Shown here piece after piece: positions 58,736-64,000 of a stretch of 64,000 nucleotides of DNA; positions within the stretch are counted from its first letter, which is position 1; each line of letters starts with the position of its first letter. The stretch covers positions 1 through 64,000 of the forward strand of contig NZ_FZPH01000026.1 in the NCBI RefSeq assembly GCF_900188485.1, read 5' to 3'. The DNA is from Asanoa hainanensis. Its GTDB lineage: Bacteria > Actinomycetota > Actinomycetes > Mycobacteriales > Micromonosporaceae. Position numbers and translations under genes: made by a program. The notes beneath the pieces were generated by a model. That model ran no database searches and had not been told where the DNA came from. It was given only the letters and a program-made list of their open reading frames with translations.

Positions 58736-60073
58736 ATGATCGAGTCTCTGCTGGTCGCCAACCGGGGTGAGATCGCCCGCCGGGTGATCCGCTCCGCGCG
58801 CCGGCTGGGCGTGCGCACGATCGCCGTCTACTCCGAGGCCGACGCCGACCTGCCGTTCGTCAAAGAGGCCGACGAGGCGGTGCTGATCGGCCCGGCCAAC
58901 GTGGCGCAGAGCTACCGCAACGTCGAGGCTCTCCTGGCCGCCGCGAAGACCACCGGCGCCCAGGCGGTCCACCCCGGCTATGGCTTCCTCTCCGAGAACG
59001 CCGAGTTCGCCCGCGCCGTCGAGGCCGCCGGCCTGATCTGGGTCGGTCCGAGCCCCGAGGCGATCAGCGCGATGGGCGACAAGATCAACGCGCGCAACCT
59101 GATGGCCGCCGCCGGTGTCCCGGTCGCACCCGGCACCACCGACCCGGCCGCGTCGGTCGACGCCGCCGTGGCGGCCGCCGCCGAGATCGGCTACCCGGTG
59201 ATGGTCAAGGCCGCGGCGGGTGGCGGCGGCATGGGCATGGGCGTCGCCGGCGACGAGGCCGCGCTGCGCACCGAGTACGACAAGGTCCGCACCTTCGCCG
59301 ACCGGATGTTCGGCGACGGCGCCGTGCTGATCGAGCGTTACTTCCCCCGCGTACGCCATGTCGAGGTGCAGATCCTGGGCCTGGCCGACGGCACCGTCGT
59401 GGCGCTCGGCGAGCGGGAGTGCTCGGTGCAGCGCCGCAACCAGAAGCTGGCCGAGGAGTCGCCGTCGCCGGCCGTCTCCCCGGAGCTGCGCGCCCGGCTG
59501 CTGGCCGCCGCCGTCCGGGCCGGCGAGGCGGTCGGCTACCGCAACGCGGGCACCGTCGAGTGCCTGCTGGAGCCCGCGACGGGCGAGTTCTTCTTCCTGG
59601 AGATGAACACCCGGCTGCAGGTCGAGCACCCGGTGACCGAGCTCGTCTACGGTGTCGACCTGGTCGAGGAGCAGTTGCGGGTGGCATCCGGCCTGCCGCC
59701 GGCGTTCGACCCGGCCGCGCTGGCCCCCCGCGGGCACGCGATCGAGCTGCGAGTCAACGCCGAGGACCCGAAGCGGTTCCTGCCCGGCCCGGGCGCGGTG
59801 ACCACCTGGGTCGAGCCGACCGGCGAGGGCGTCCGGGTCGACTCGGGGTACGCCGCAGGGACGACGGTGACTCCGTTCTACGACTCATTGATGGCCAAGC
59901 TCGTTGTGTATGGCGATGACCGTGCGCAGGCGCTCGAGCGGGCCCGGGCCGCGGTCGCCGCGTTCGAGATCGTGGGTCCGAAGCAGAACCTGCCGTTCTT
60001 CGCGGAACTGCTGGACAACGCCGAGTTCGGTTCGGGTGACTACGACACAGGCATCGTGGCTCGCATGCGATAA
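58736..60073 (+). CDS. accC: Biotin carboxylase subunit of an acyl-CoA carboxylase
   Basis: A 445-residue biotin carboxylase that carboxylates biotin on a carrier protein using ATP and bicarbonate. The N-domain is SLLVANRGEIARRVIRSARRLG, with HPGYGFLSENAEFA. The ATP-grasp domain has VMVKAAAGGGGMGMGVA, RHVEVQILG, ECSVQRRNQKLAEESPSP and FLEMNTRLQVEHPVTE. It ends without a biotin-carrier domain, unlike the ~590-residue actinomycete AccA proteins, so a separate BCCP must exist. The carboxyltransferase is at 63261, beyond two secreted-protein genes. Strong ribosome site GAGAGGGGAG. Confidence 0.94.
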   Translation: MIESLLVANRGEIARRVIRSARRLGVRTIAVYSEADADLPFVKEADEAVLIGPANVAQSYRNVEALLAAAKTTGAQAVHPGYGFLSENAEFARAVEAAGLIWVGPSPEAISAMGDKINARNLMAAAGVPVAPGTTDPAASVDAAVAAAAEIGYPVMVKAAAGGGGMGMGVAGDEAALRTEYDKVRTFADRMFGDGAVLIERYFPRVRHVEVQILGLADGTVVALGERECSVQRRNQKLAEESPSPAVSPELRARLLAAAVRAGEAVGYRNAGTVECLLEPATGEFFFLEMNTRLQVEHPVTELVYGVDLVEEQLRVASGLPPAFDPAALAPRGHAIELRVNAEDPKRFLPGPGAVTTWVEPTGEGVRVDSGYAAGTTVTPFYDSLMAKLVVYGDDRAQALERARAAVAAFEIVGPKQNLPFFAELLDNAEFGSGDYDTGIVARMR

Positions 60074-60126
60074 GTGGGGTTAGTGACCATTTTTTCCCAT
60101 TCACCTGCGTGACCCCGTTCAGGCCA

Positions 60127-60193
60127 GTTCGTTACCTAAGGCAGTGGCGGTCATAACCGGTCAAATCAGGCCGGACCGCCACCGCTAACGAAC
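60127..60193 (+). promoter_or_regulatory. Long interrupted inverted repeat in the leader of the secreted-protein gene
   Basis: GTTCGTTA (60127-60134) pairs with TAACGAAC (60186-60193), and GCAGTGGCGGTC (60141-60152) pairs with GACCGCCACCGC (60174-60185) with one mismatch. The left side has a 6-nt bulge and the loop is 21 nt. It ends 22 bp before ATG 60216 and 53 bp after the accC stop. Confidence 0.65.
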
Positions 60194-60215
60194 CGGCGAG
60201 CGGGAAGGCGGGCCC

Positions 60216-61406
60216 ATGATTCGGTCGGGAGTCGCGCGCGTCAAGCGCCAGGCTTCACGCCGGGTCCTGGTCCGCACGCTCGTCGTCGGTGGTCTCGCGG
60301 GAGCGGCCTGGCTGCTCTCCGCGTCGGCTGCTCAGGCCGCCGCCGCGGAACCGTCCGCCGACCGGAGCACGGGGTCCGTCCTCGAGCCCCTGGGCGGCGT
60401 GCTGGAAGCCGCGAAGCCGGTGTTGAGCACGGCAGAAGGACTGCTCGGGGGAGCATTGGCGCCGGCAACGGCGCAGGGTTCCACAGCGCCGGTGACGGCG
60501 CGCGGTTCCTCTGCGCCGGCAATGGCGCACGCTCCCGTCGAGCAGCCGGTGTCGACCGGCCGGACCGCCGCGCGGCGGGTGAGCTCCGATTCCGCCGTCG
60601 CCGTCGTCGCACCCAGTACGACGGCGAAACGCTCCATCACCATCGCGGACGCGGCGCCGGCCCTCGGGTCGGACCAGGCCGCCGTCCGTACGGCCGACCG
60701 CGCCGGCGCCCCCCACGGGTCGCCGAACCGCTCGGCGGACCGGCCCGAACCCCGCGTCAGCGGGTTGGCCGGCATCGGACTGGTCGCTCCGCTCGGGGTC
60801 ACCCGTGCGCTGACCGTCCCGGGCGCCCTGCTTACCCCGGTGGCTCAGGTCGCCCTGCCGGCACTCGCGCCGGTCACCGCGTTCTTCCGTCCACTGACCT
60901 CGATGCTGCGGTTCGCCGTGGTGCCGTTGTTCAGCACGGCGGGCGTGGTGGCCAAGACGGTGACCGGCACCCTGCCCGGCCCCCGTGGCCGGCCAAGCTC
61001 GGTTGTCACGCCCAACGGTCCCGTCGGCGTGCACGGAGGCGTGTCATCCGGCACGACCGGCACGGTCGCCGCGGGTGCGGCCTCCGCGGCCGCGGTTGGG
61101 GCCGCTCACACCGAGCCGAGCACCGACCGGCAGCATGCCGGCCGGCCGGAACGCGCGGTCGAGGCCGTGTCGTCCCGGAAGAAGGGCGATGCGCCCAGCC
61201 TGCCCCATCCCGTGCCCGCACAGGGTGAAGGCAGCGCTTCGGGGACCCCGGCCAGTGCGGCGGGTTCACCGATGGGCGGTGGTGCGTTCGCCACCGTTCC
61301 CTCGTCGGTCGCGGACAGCATGGTGGCCTACCAGTTGCTGCCGAAATCGGCCGACACAGTGGTACCGCGGCGTGACGCCGAGGAACCGACCGTCTCACCT
61401 GACTAG
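60216..61406 (+). CDS. Secreted hypothetical protein, Ala-rich with hydrophobic centre
   Basis: A 396-residue protein not belonging to a family I know. A basic N-region (GVARVKRQASRRVLVR) and hydrophobic core (TLVVGGLAGAAWLLSASAAQA) form a signal peptide with a likely cut after AQA. The mature part has short Ala/Thr/Ser repeats (ATAQGSTAP, TARGSSAP) and a hydrophobic central stretch (about 190-265: VAPLGVTRALTVPGALL, FFRPLTSMLRFAVVPLFST). The tail is Gly/Ser/Ala rich. No cysteine or catalytic motif stands out. It lies next to the chaplin-like gene and may share its role at the cell surface. Confidence 0.75.
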   Translation: MIRSGVARVKRQASRRVLVRTLVVGGLAGAAWLLSASAAQAAAAEPSADRSTGSVLEPLGGVLEAAKPVLSTAEGLLGGALAPATAQGSTAPVTARGSSAPAMAHAPVEQPVSTGRTAARRVSSDSAVAVVAPSTTAKRSITIADAAPALGSDQAAVRTADRAGAPHGSPNRSADRPEPRVSGLAGIGLVAPLGVTRALTVPGALLTPVAQVALPALAPVTAFFRPLTSMLRFAVVPLFSTAGVVAKTVTGTLPGPRGRPSSVVTPNGPVGVHGGVSSGTTGTVAAGAASAAAVGAAHTEPSTDRQHAGRPERAVEAVSSRKKGDAPSLPHPVPAQGEGSASGTPASAAGSPMGGGAFATVPSSVADSMVAYQLLPKSADTVVPRRDAEEPTVSPD

Positions 61407-61659
61407 TGATGAAGGACCTGCACCGGCGACGGGCAGGAGCCGACCAGCCCCACCGGGCCACCGGGCCCGTGTAGCGCGGCAGACCAGGGATTCCGATGAC
61501 CGCTCGCACTAGCGGCGAAACCCTGGCCGGACATCACGAACCACACCTGGGCGCAAGTCGACAGGCGGAGTCAGGGCACCTCACGGCACCGTCGCGCCCG
61601 GACAGCGACACCACGGCAACACCCTCTTACTGACATTTATTGAAAGGTCACTTCACCCA

Positions 61660-63153
61660 ATGAAGACTTGGGTTCGCAAGTCCATCAGCGTTGGCGTCAT
61701 GGCGGCTGGTGGTCTGCTCATCACCCAGGCGGCGGCCTCGGCCGACGTCATCAGCAACGGCAACTTCGGCGTCGGCAACGGCACCCAGCTGTACGCGCCG
61801 ATCCAGACCGTCGCGGACATCTGCGGCAACAGCATCGCCGGCGTCGGCGGTGCCGCGTTCGCGCAGTGTGACGGCGGCGCGGCCGCGGTCAACGGCGGCG
61901 GCAGCAACTTCATCACGTCGAACAACTTCGGTGTCGGCAACGGCAGCCAGGTGATCACGCCGGTCCAGACCGTCCTGGACGTCTGCGGCAACGCCATCGG
62001 TGCCGCCGCCAGCGCGGCCTTCGCCGCCTGTGACGGTGGCGCCCTGGCCGTCAACGGCGCCGGCGAGAGCGACGACAACGACGGTGGTTACCGCAAGCAC
62101 CACGACGCCGACGAGGCCCTCAAGATGGCCGAGGGCAAGAGCAAGAAGCACAAGAAGGGCCGCGGTGCTTGGGACGACCAGGCCACCAACGTCATCTCGT
62201 CGGGCAACTACGGTGTCCTGAACGGCACCCAGGTCTACGCGCCGATCCAGACCTCGATCAACATCTGCGGCAACGCGATCCCGCTGGTCGGTGCCGCGGC
62301 GTTCGCCTCCTGCGACGGCGGCGCGGCCGCGGTCAACGAGAGCGCTCGCGCTGAGGGTGGCGACTACGACGGTCGGGGCCACGACGGCCGGGGTCACCGT
62401 GGCAGCCGCGGCGACGGCGGCGGCACGCTGGTCTTCACCGGCGGCAACTACGGCGTCGGCAACGGCACCCAGGTGTTCGCGCCGATCCAGACCGTGATCG
62501 ACATCTGCGGTAACGGCATCGCCGCCGCCGGTGGGGCCGCGTTCGCGGCTTGCGACGGTGGCGCCGCCGCCGTCAACGAGAGCGCCCGCGAGGAAGCCAA
62601 CGTCATCTCGACCGGCAACTACGGCGTCGGCAACGGCACCCAGGCGTACGCGCCGGTCCAGACCGTCCTGGACGTCTGCGGCAACGGCATCGCCGGCGCT
62701 GCGGCGGCCGCGTTCGCGCAGTGCGACGGTGGCGCGATCGCCCTCAACGAGAGCGCTCGCGCCGAGGGTGCGCGCGACGAGGCGCTGCCGGTTCTCGGCT
62801 CGCTCCCCGTCGTCGCGGGCCTGCCGGTCGTCGGGTCGCTGGGGCAGAACACCGCCCCGGCCGCCGCTCCCAAGATGGACACCGCGCCGGGTGCCCGCTC
62901 GGGTGCCACCGAGGGTGACGACTACGACAACGACCGTCGTCACGGCAAGCACGGCAAGAAGAACGGCCACCGGGGCAGCGTTGCCTCCAACGGTGGGACC
63001 AACGTGATCACCACGGGCAACTACGGTGTCGCCAACGGCACCCAGGTGTACGCGCCGGTCCAGACCGTGATCGACATCAGCGGCAACGCGATCGCCGCCG
63101 CCGGTGGCGCCGCCTTCGCGCAGAGCCAGGGCGGGGCGCTCGCCCTCAACTGA
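61660..63153 (+). CDS. Secreted protein with six chaplin-like repeats
   Basis: A 497-residue secreted protein. A signal peptide ends at ASA near residue 28. Six ~50-residue repeats follow at about residues 29-78, 83-132, 177-226, 256-305, 313-362 and 447-496. Each reads NVIS-GNYGVGNGTQVYAPIQ, then a CGN, then FAxCDGGAxAxN. This resembles the chaplin domain of Streptomyces (GN, PV and CGN signature, two Cys). Spacers are charged, with Lys/His-rich (KSKKHKKGRG) and Gly/Arg/His-rich runs. The sixth repeat has Ser in place of both cysteines (DISGN and AQSQGG). Probably a surface-active or amyloid-like coat protein. ATG 61660 has AAGGT upstream. Confidence 0.85.
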   Translation: MKTWVRKSISVGVMAAGGLLITQAAASADVISNGNFGVGNGTQLYAPIQTVADICGNSIAGVGGAAFAQCDGGAAAVNGGGSNFITSNNFGVGNGSQVITPVQTVLDVCGNAIGAAASAAFAACDGGALAVNGAGESDDNDGGYRKHHDADEALKMAEGKSKKHKKGRGAWDDQATNVISSGNYGVLNGTQVYAPIQTSINICGNAIPLVGAAAFASCDGGAAAVNESARAEGGDYDGRGHDGRGHRGSRGDGGGTLVFTGGNYGVGNGTQVFAPIQTVIDICGNGIAAAGGAAFAACDGGAAAVNESAREEANVISTGNYGVGNGTQAYAPVQTVLDVCGNGIAGAAAAAFAQCDGGAIALNESARAEGARDEALPVLGSLPVVAGLPVVGSLGQNTAPAAAPKMDTAPGARSGATEGDDYDNDRRHGKHGKKNGHRGSVASNGGTNVITTGNYGVANGTQVYAPVQTVIDISGNAIAAAGGAAFAQSQGGALALN

Positions 63154-63173
63154 TCCACCGTTCGACCGCTTCA

Positions 63174-63204
63174 AAAGGGCCCCCGCGACCTGCGGGGGCC
63201 CTTT
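63174..63204 (+). terminator. Rho-independent terminator after the chaplin-like gene
   Basis: AAAGGGCCCCCGC (63174-63186) and GCGGGGGCCCTTT (63192-63204) form a perfect 13-bp stem with a GACCT loop, 20 bp after the stop and followed by CGTTTG. Confidence 0.92.
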
Positions 63205-63260
63205 CGTTTGCGGATGTAGTACCTTAACGATAGTTCAGTCGCGTTGGCGAAGGGGTCGGT

Positions 63261-64000
63261 GTGGCACTCGACGACGAAGAGCTCGAGCAGCTCGGCAAGC
63301 GGGTCCGGGCCGGTGGCGCGGAGCGCTACCACGCGGCCAACGCAGCCAAGGGCAAGATGTTCGCCCGCGAGCGGGTGGCGCACCTGGTCGACGAGGGCTC
63401 GTTCGTCGAGGACGGGCTCTACGCCAACGCCCTCGCCGAGGGCCTGCCGGCCGACGGCGTGATCACCGGTCAGGCGACCATCGACGGCCGTCGGGTCTGC
63501 CTGATGGCGAACGACTCGACGGTGAAGGCCGGCTCCTGGGGCGCCCGTACCGTTGAGAAGATCATCCGGATCATCGAGCGGGCCTACCAGTCCGGTCTGC
63601 CGATGGTCTACCTGGTCGACTCGGCCGGCGCCCGGATCACCGACCAGGTCGACCTGTTCCCTGGCCGGCGCGGCGCCGGGCACATCTTCTGGAACCAGGT
63701 CCGTGCCTCCGGGTCGATCCCGCAGGTCTGCGCGCTGTTCGGGCCGTCCGCGGCGGGCGGTGCGTACATCCCGGCGTTCTGCGACGTGGTCGCGATGGTC
63801 GACGGCAACGCCAGCATGTACCTCGGGTCCGACCGCATGGTCGAGATGGTCACCGGCGAGAAGACCACGCTGGAGGCGATGGGTGGCGCCGCGGTGCACA
63901 CCCGTGAGTCCGGCGTCGGCCACTTCCTGTGCAAGACCGAGGACGAGGCGCTCGACACCGTTCGCCGCTACCTGTCCTACCTGCCGGCCAACTACACCGA
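63261..64000 (+). CDS. Acyl-CoA carboxylase carboxyltransferase subunit (partial, runs off the window)
   Basis: The first 246 codons of a biotin-dependent carboxyltransferase (PccB/AccD family), which moves CO2 from carboxybiotin to an acyl-CoA. GTG 63261 (VALDDEELEQLGKRV) has AAGGGG upstream. The frame is open to the window end. Family motifs are AKGKMFARERVAHLVDEGSF, VYLVDSAGARITDQVDLFPGRRGAG, FGPSAAGGAYIPAFCDVV and GSDRMVEMVTGEKTTLEAMGG. Its partner biotin carboxylase is at 58736; a terminator and two secreted-protein genes separate them, so it has its own promoter. Confidence 0.94.
   Translation, partial: MALDDEELEQLGKRVRAGGAERYHAANAAKGKMFARERVAHLVDEGSFVEDGLYANALAEGLPADGVITGQATIDGRRVCLMANDSTVKAGSWGARTVEKIIRIIERAYQSGLPMVYLVDSAGARITDQVDLFPGRRGAGHIFWNQVRASGSIPQVCALFGPSAAGGAYIPAFCDVVAMVDGNASMYLGSDRMVEMVTGEKTTLEAMGGAAVHTRESGVGHFLCKTEDEALDTVRRYLSYLPANYT

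Follow-up and report, generated by a model that had tools for sequence, protein, structure and literature searches.

A predicted secreted six-domain polychaplin of Asanoa hainanensis with a cysteine-free C-terminal domain

Introduction

The closest described counterparts of the protein reported here are the chaplins of Streptomyces coelicolor. According to the part of PMC3079736 available to us, this species has eight chaplin genes, and its Cys-bearing and Cys-free chaplins are separate peptides. ChpE is devoid of cysteines; it is believed to coordinate assembly, and a wild-type background cannot do without it. The cysteines of ChpH are needed in vivo, and fibrils form in vitro without any need for chaplin cysteines. 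The smallest working set is seemingly ChpC, ChpE and ChpH (PMC3079736, same part). The available sections of other papers give three GN motifs per chaplin domain (PMC13251363), set out the roles of long and short chaplins (PMC13293333), and report that chaplins also act in surface attachment and that chaplin-like proteins occur outside Streptomyces, Stackebrandtia included (PMC4255298).

A chaplin domain at the C-terminus that lacks cysteines has been described before. The direct precedent, in the available part of PMC13251363, is S. coelicolor ChpB, whose C-terminal domain lacks both cysteines; PMC3079736, in the part available, instead describes the cysteines as conserved in all chaplin domains except that of ChpE. 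Among the matches listed in our literature search on chaplins in Micromonosporaceae, Actinomadura and Glycomyces, which covered titles and abstract openings, there was no multi-domain chaplin with a Cys-free end.

Here we describe a polychaplin gene in a 64,000-nucleotide stretch of the genome of the soil bacterium Asanoa hainanensis (contig NZ_FZPH01000026.1, positions 1 to 64,000), hereafter the window. How does its product compare with the known chaplins? Like ChpA-C of S. coelicolor, which are secreted and have more than one chaplin domain, it is predicted to be exported and carries several. However, ChpA-C have two domains and a C-terminal sortase signal, whereas the window protein runs to six domains, has charged spacers and lacks any sortase signal. 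It shares with ChpB the C-terminal domain without both cysteines, but the Cys-free domain of ChpB adjoins the wall anchor and that of the window protein is a free tip. ChpE, the proposed assembly coordinator (PMC3079736, available part), is Cys-free like domain 6 but is a separate single-domain protein, while domain 6 is joined to five Cys-bearing ones. Domains 1-5, finally, resemble ChpH and other Cys-bearing short chaplins in having one Cys pair per domain; the short chaplins are single-domain peptides, whereas the window protein strings such modules in tandem.

Results

The gene lies at 61660..63153 (forward strand, as do all features below), starts with ATG and encodes a predicted secreted polychaplin of 497 aa in which one ORF holds six copies of a 44-residue core. 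The copies are 61-82% identical to one another (mean 72%); when one member of each pair was shuffled, the mean fell to 12% and the maximum was 34%. The cores of domains 1 to 5 (61762..61893, 61924..62055, 62206..62337, 62446..62577 and 62617..62748) have two cysteines each, in 5/5 domains, and hold all ten cysteines of the protein (residues 55, 70, 109, 124, 203, 218, 283, 298, 340 and 355). The core of domain 6 (63019..63150) is a Cys-free end module. Ser474 and Ser489, both encoded by AGC (63079-63081 and 63124-63126), stand at its two Cys sites, and Gln replaces Asp after the second. The stop codon follows directly, leaving a C-terminus with no sortase or membrane signal. Six repeats, with cysteines in copies 1-5 and serines in copy 6, were what the original prediction had described, and both coordinates and residues were confirmed.

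A signal peptide with likely cleavage after A-S-A (61660..61743) was recognized by eye from its positively charged start, its hydrophobic stretch and the ASA before domain 1; M1, W4 and R6 of this region are invariant in 12/12 aligned proteins. The spacers between copies had been called charged. This is correct for spacers 2-3, 3-4, 4-5 and 5-6 but not for spacer 1-2 (GGGSNF), which is uncharged, nor for all of spacer 5-6 (86 aa). The latter is the long linker preceding the end domain (62749..63018), and it holds an uncharged, hydrophobic, LP-rich LPVLGSLPVVAGLPVVGSL stretch as well as a charged part. Just after the stop, a perfect 13-bp inverted repeat with a 5-base loop (63174..63204) was seen by eye and is a possible terminator; a promoter and terminator scan gave nothing useful and did not call this repeat.

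To which family does the protein belong? The Pfam profile ChpA-C (PF03777) matched the whole protein at 33.3 bits, against a cut-off of 21, and matched, at E <= 0.01, 12/12 of the proteins in alignment A1, which holds 11 relatives besides the window protein. The chaplin-like character originally proposed, which hung on profile similarity, is therefore upheld. When the profile was run on each repeat, as had been suggested, the outcome was mixed: domain 3 passed by itself (25.6 bits), domains 6, 4 and 5 scored below the cut-off (17.8, 15.2 and 11.5 bits), and domains 1 and 2 gave no ChpA-C match. No NCBIfam profile scored above its cut-off for the 497-aa protein. We rejected membership of HYR_4C (PF23237), whose 31.5 bits (cut-off 27) arise only as a sum over repeats with no single stretch passing, and which matched 1/12 A1 members, the window protein alone.

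By eye, the first GN site reads GN in 4/6 copies, the second (CGN or SGN) is present in 6/6, and the third is GG in 6/6. The protein thus differs from a classical chaplin, with three GN motifs per domain, and the two cysteines of such a domain are found in domains 1-5 and not in domain 6. It also has no C-terminal sortase signal of the kind that marks long chaplins. Because of the GN motifs we class it on its profile match, as a protein with ChpA-C domains and not as a classical chaplin; it is neither a short nor a long chaplin of the Streptomyces type.

The chaplin gene sits between two carboxylase-type genes (window 58736-63998). The upstream flanking gene (58736..60073) we take to be of the biotin carboxylase type, and the downstream one (63261..63998), which runs past the window end, is presumably of the acyl-CoA carboxylase carboxyltransferase type. 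Among 117 loci with a multi-domain chaplin ORF, the downstream gene was found on the same strand in 52 and both flanks in 23, many of the 117 being too short to show the upstream flanking gene. Five-domain tailed chaplins also occur at the carboxylase locus in the Actinoplanes group (L052, L055, L058, L084, L096, L105 and L106). A secreted-looking 396-aa ORF (60216..61406), present in 6/6 Asanoa genomes, lies upstream of the chaplin gene on the same strand and is a possible partner. Pfam and NCBIfam profiles gave no match to it. In loci of Phytohabitans, Pseudosporangium and Micromonospora, its last 36 residues also find a match ahead of the chaplin gene.

The constant presence of this 396-aa gene bears on one alternative explanation, that the window protein is a soluble mycelial surfactant or adhesin rather than a coat polymer. 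Its charged spacers would then separate the domains, and its Cys-free domain would bind the wall or the 396-aa protein. Two spacers of 46 and 86 aa do hold 22 and 23 charged residues (His counted), and the attachment role reported for chaplins (PMC4255298, in the part cited above) points the same way. However, any binding motif or partner is hypothetical, and the domain belongs to the same hydrophobic profile family as the amyloid-forming chaplins. We consider this explanation very unlikely.

The gene is present in 6/6 Asanoa genomes, the window's own included; in one of them (G004) it is split across two contigs. The best named match is in Asanoa ishikariensis (L045, 77% in the best segment), and across the family 146/354 genomes had a match at E <= 0.001, with four candidates scored per genome. 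A search with the domain alignment A2 (E <= 0.01) found domain matches in two genes only in each of the six Asanoa genomes, the polychaplin and one single-domain gene. The single-domain ORFs (L001, L012, L013, L017, L019 and L020) have both cysteines (CC) and a sortase-type tail in 6/6, and the window's genome contains seven sortase-family matches. These samples consist of matches to the window protein or to A2, so that distant chaplins are under-represented; two loci, L009 and L060, are cut at the N-terminal side.

We read the domains with an HMM built from the sampled loci, which gave 491 distinct domains. Both cysteines were present in 327, and 146 had none in the scanned stretch. Another 18/491, all of them end domains, had no internal Cys but one Cys at or next to the protein end. 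An apparent single-Cys domain (L118) proved to be a shortened domain holding both. Each of the 491 distinct domains thus has either both cysteines of the pair or neither, and such all-or-none pairs are what an intradomain disulfide predicts.

The Cys state of the last domain goes with the architecture of the chain. We clustered 123 C-terminally complete ORFs with at least two domains at 90% identity into 96 clusters, which are not phylogenetically independent, and called a protein tailless if no more than 20 residues separated its end from the second Cys position and tailed if its tail had at least 30 residues. The end domain was Cys-free in 44/47 tailless clusters, the other three ending CC (L023, the third ORF of L111, and L169), and in 0/49 tailed clusters. 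One of these 49, L027, is a frameshifted gene, leaving 48 that are sound; its frameshift splits the chaplin gene, and a Cys-free last domain lies in another frame. In the tailless set, Cys-free domains were also found at 21/101 middle and 5/47 first positions. Shuffling the Cys states within tailless proteins gave a mean of 16 and, in 20,000 draws, a maximum of 29 Cys-free ends, against the 44 observed.

The rule linking tail to end was fixed before further loci of the same family were fetched, which provides a check on a dependent sample. In the later-fetched distinct ORFs, 13/14 tailless proteins ended Cys-free and 13/13 tailed ones ended CC. The figures were 9/10 and 9/9 for the ORFs lying outside 90% of the first batch (19/27). 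The original prediction had named a strain-specific change as the finding that would count against it. Orthologues have the same Cys-free last repeat, however, and a unique or strain-specific Cys loss is ruled out. A more general rule, by which no genome with a polychaplin could lack a Cys-free domain, is also ruled out: the 5, 5 and 3 domain matches of genomes G362-G364 all fall in polychaplins built of CC domains only.

The last module had also been described as open. It does lack the internal pair, but openness is not general among its relatives. In 13/44 tailless free-ended clusters, a new Cys pair brackets the end domain: the first Cys lies a short way ahead of the domain, and the second is the C-terminal residue or close beside it (as in L029, GGCSDW...AYSC). 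If these cysteines bond, the end domain would be closed from outside. Because of these bracketed ends, the general property is that the last domain lacks its internal pair, rather than that it is open. Bracketed end domains include those of L029, L032, L050, L076, L115, L123, L148 and L162.

End domains also stand apart in their linkers. The longest linker precedes the end domain in 37/43 free-ended relatives with at least two linkers, where 14.8 would be expected. An LP/LGG-type motif is found in 29/44 last linkers, 5/100 internal linkers and 36/49 tails, counts that favour long linkers, as longer stretches hold such motifs more easily. From their sequences, the tailed relatives look like proteins that stop after the linker, without an end module.

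Polychaplins outside the window's family place the Cys-free domain elsewhere. A class search gave a match in 63/246 genomes at E <= 1e-4, and we scored architectures only for ORFs with at least two detected domains (n=23). Ten of the 23 end in a membrane-anchor-like segment, and in 10/10 of these all detected domains are CC except the first, which is Cys-free. Eight sortase-type proteins have all domains CC; three other sortase-type polychaplins (L244, L254 and L257) and two open-ended ORFs have no Cys in any detected domain. Eight Actinomadura genomes encode long chaplins in which the first detected domain is Cys-free (8/8); four of these proteins extend past the edge of the retrieved sequence, and the remaining four terminate in a membrane-anchor-like segment. 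In L215-L222, L231-L238, L240 and L248, between four and eight domains were detected, the first of them Cys-free, and a tail follows at the C-terminus. The other-family and Actinomadura polychaplins are thus like the window protein in combining many CC domains with one Cys-free end domain. They differ from it in that this domain is the first detected and that the chain continues into a long C-terminal tail, which in complete ORFs closes with a membrane-anchor-like segment; the window protein has no such tail.

These architectures, together with the bracketing cysteines, bear on a second alternative, in which the end domain serves folding or export. It would leave the translocon without an internal disulfide and avoid mispairing, with no special part in assembly, and some lineages would lock it by an outer disulfide. 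The bracketing pair in 13/44 end domains is what such locking would look like. However, tailed relatives (49 clusters, one frameshifted) end in a CC domain followed by a tail, and in the anchored polychaplins (10/10) and Actinomadura (8/8) the Cys-free domain is the first detected. In our judgement the folding or export explanation is improbable.

Is the Cys-free end simply inherited? We compared the end domains of the 44 tailless free-ended clusters with other domains, excluding the Cys columns. The mean identity of end domains was 68% to internals of their own protein, 52% to the ends of other proteins and 52% to the internals of others, and the own-internal mean exceeded the other-end mean in 41/44 clusters. 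Most protein pairs (916 of 946) were less than 0.75 similar, and in these the identity between two ends was equal or nearly equal to between-protein end-internal identity (46 vs 47% in 396 pairs, 55 vs 55% in 426 and 63 vs 62% in 94), while ends matched their own internals at 65, 70 and 71% in the same three bins. The sequences of distant proteins thus point to an end domain without a signature of its own besides the missing cysteines. The equality of the two identities argues that repeats were homogenized or re-expanded without bringing Cys into the end.

Near relatives differ from this picture. In the 30 nearest pairs (at least 0.75), identity was 77% between ends, 69% between an end and the other protein's internals, and 72% between an end and its own internals; over all 44 rows, the closest other end beat the closest own internal copy in 26, with 4 ties. 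Because ends of near relatives are more alike than they are to their own internals, end domains are inherited as such among near relatives, and part of the conservation is plain descent. Trees gave a similar indication. On a weak tree of 195 domains (about 40 columns), end position changed 32 times (shuffled mean 42, minimum 38) and Cys state 41 times (shuffled mean 58, minimum 48). A single clade of end domains is unsupported by this tree, yet they group more than by chance. The downstream-gene tree needs only about three switches of tail state, and a phylogenetically independent comparison of tail with Cys-free end had one pair on starred branches and three on all branches, too few to give it any power (p = 1).

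Descent is central to a third alternative, that the protein is an ordinary multi-domain chaplin and its Cys-free last domain a roleless relic left by a single ancestral fusion. There is precedent for chaplin domains without cysteines, in ChpE and at the C-terminus of ChpB (in the parts of the two papers cited above); the changes counted on the domain tree (32 vs 42 and 41 vs 58) indicate that common descent is present; near relatives have orthologous end domains in common; and the downstream-gene tree shows few changes of tail state. A relic fits less well with the distant ends, which have no signature except the missing Cys and whose proteins were apparently homogenized without Cys entering the end. 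It also fits less well with Asanoa itself, where domain 3 varies (CC in L002 and L004, Cys-free in L005) and the end domain is Cys-free in all five proteins read (L002, L004, L005, L006 and L008). We regard a roleless relic as unlikely, if still a serious candidate.

The paired loss of cysteines had been put down to selection. With 44/47 tailless clusters alike, and with the state persisting through longer-term repeat homogenization, this is a fair reading. Maintained selection for a Cys-free end is likely, not proven, on these comparisons of sequence, and the Cys-free last unit common to many relatives is more likely a kept design than an accident.

Predicted structures added little. AlphaFold gave a pLDDT of 43 for domain 6 alone (A2, 105 rows) and 47 for the full-length protein (A3, 22 rows). 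In the full-length model, the pLDDT of the blocks over domains 1, 2 and 6 rose to about 62-73, which does not suffice for placing the Ser or Cys sites. With these poor models, Foldseek returned 9 matches at E <= 10 and none at E <= 0.001.

Discussion

The window protein joins six chaplin domains in one chain, matches the ChpA-C profile, and has tailless relatives in which the Cys-free end is conserved. We favour the view that it is a secreted polychaplin, with five Cys-pair modules and a conserved, ChpE-like, Cys-free end module for docking, seeding or stopping; we put the chance that this is right at close to, but not quite, even. The 497-aa protein would be exported, and each Cys pair in domains 1-5 would close its own module as a disulfide. 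Cross-beta contacts between chains would then build a hydrophobic coat that covers aerial hyphae or spores, shared with the genome's one sortase-type single-domain chaplin, which is of the anchored kind. By analogy with Streptomyces, the end module may fill the role of ChpE, as the chain end at which molecules dock, seed or stop, so that ChpH-like and ChpE-like roles would be united in one chain.

The ChpE-like role of the end is supported by the longest linker, which sets the end apart in 37/43 relatives. Several observations count against it: the three tailless clusters that end CC, the all-CC polychaplins of G362-G364, the 13/44 bracketed ends, the likeness of end domains among near relatives, the roughly three tail-state changes, and the ChpB domain that sits beside a wall anchor.

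Why join Cys-bearing and Cys-free modules at fixed places in one chain? Only two chaplin genes were found per genome in Asanoa. As a tentative proposal, which we think possible but doubtful, polychaplins may be a one-chain chaplin apparatus. A Cys-free assembly tip would lie at the C-terminus in the secreted family of the window, or, in another family, at the N-terminus, with a membrane-anchor-like tail at the far end of the chain, and an Asanoa-like bacterium could run its whole coat on two chaplin genes. In S. coelicolor, the special role of the Cys-free ChpE is a proposal in the available part of PMC3079736. The window protein offers a simple system in which the role of a Cys-free module is testable by one deletion, and it may show how nature designs a polymer that coats surfaces and has one end unlike the rest.
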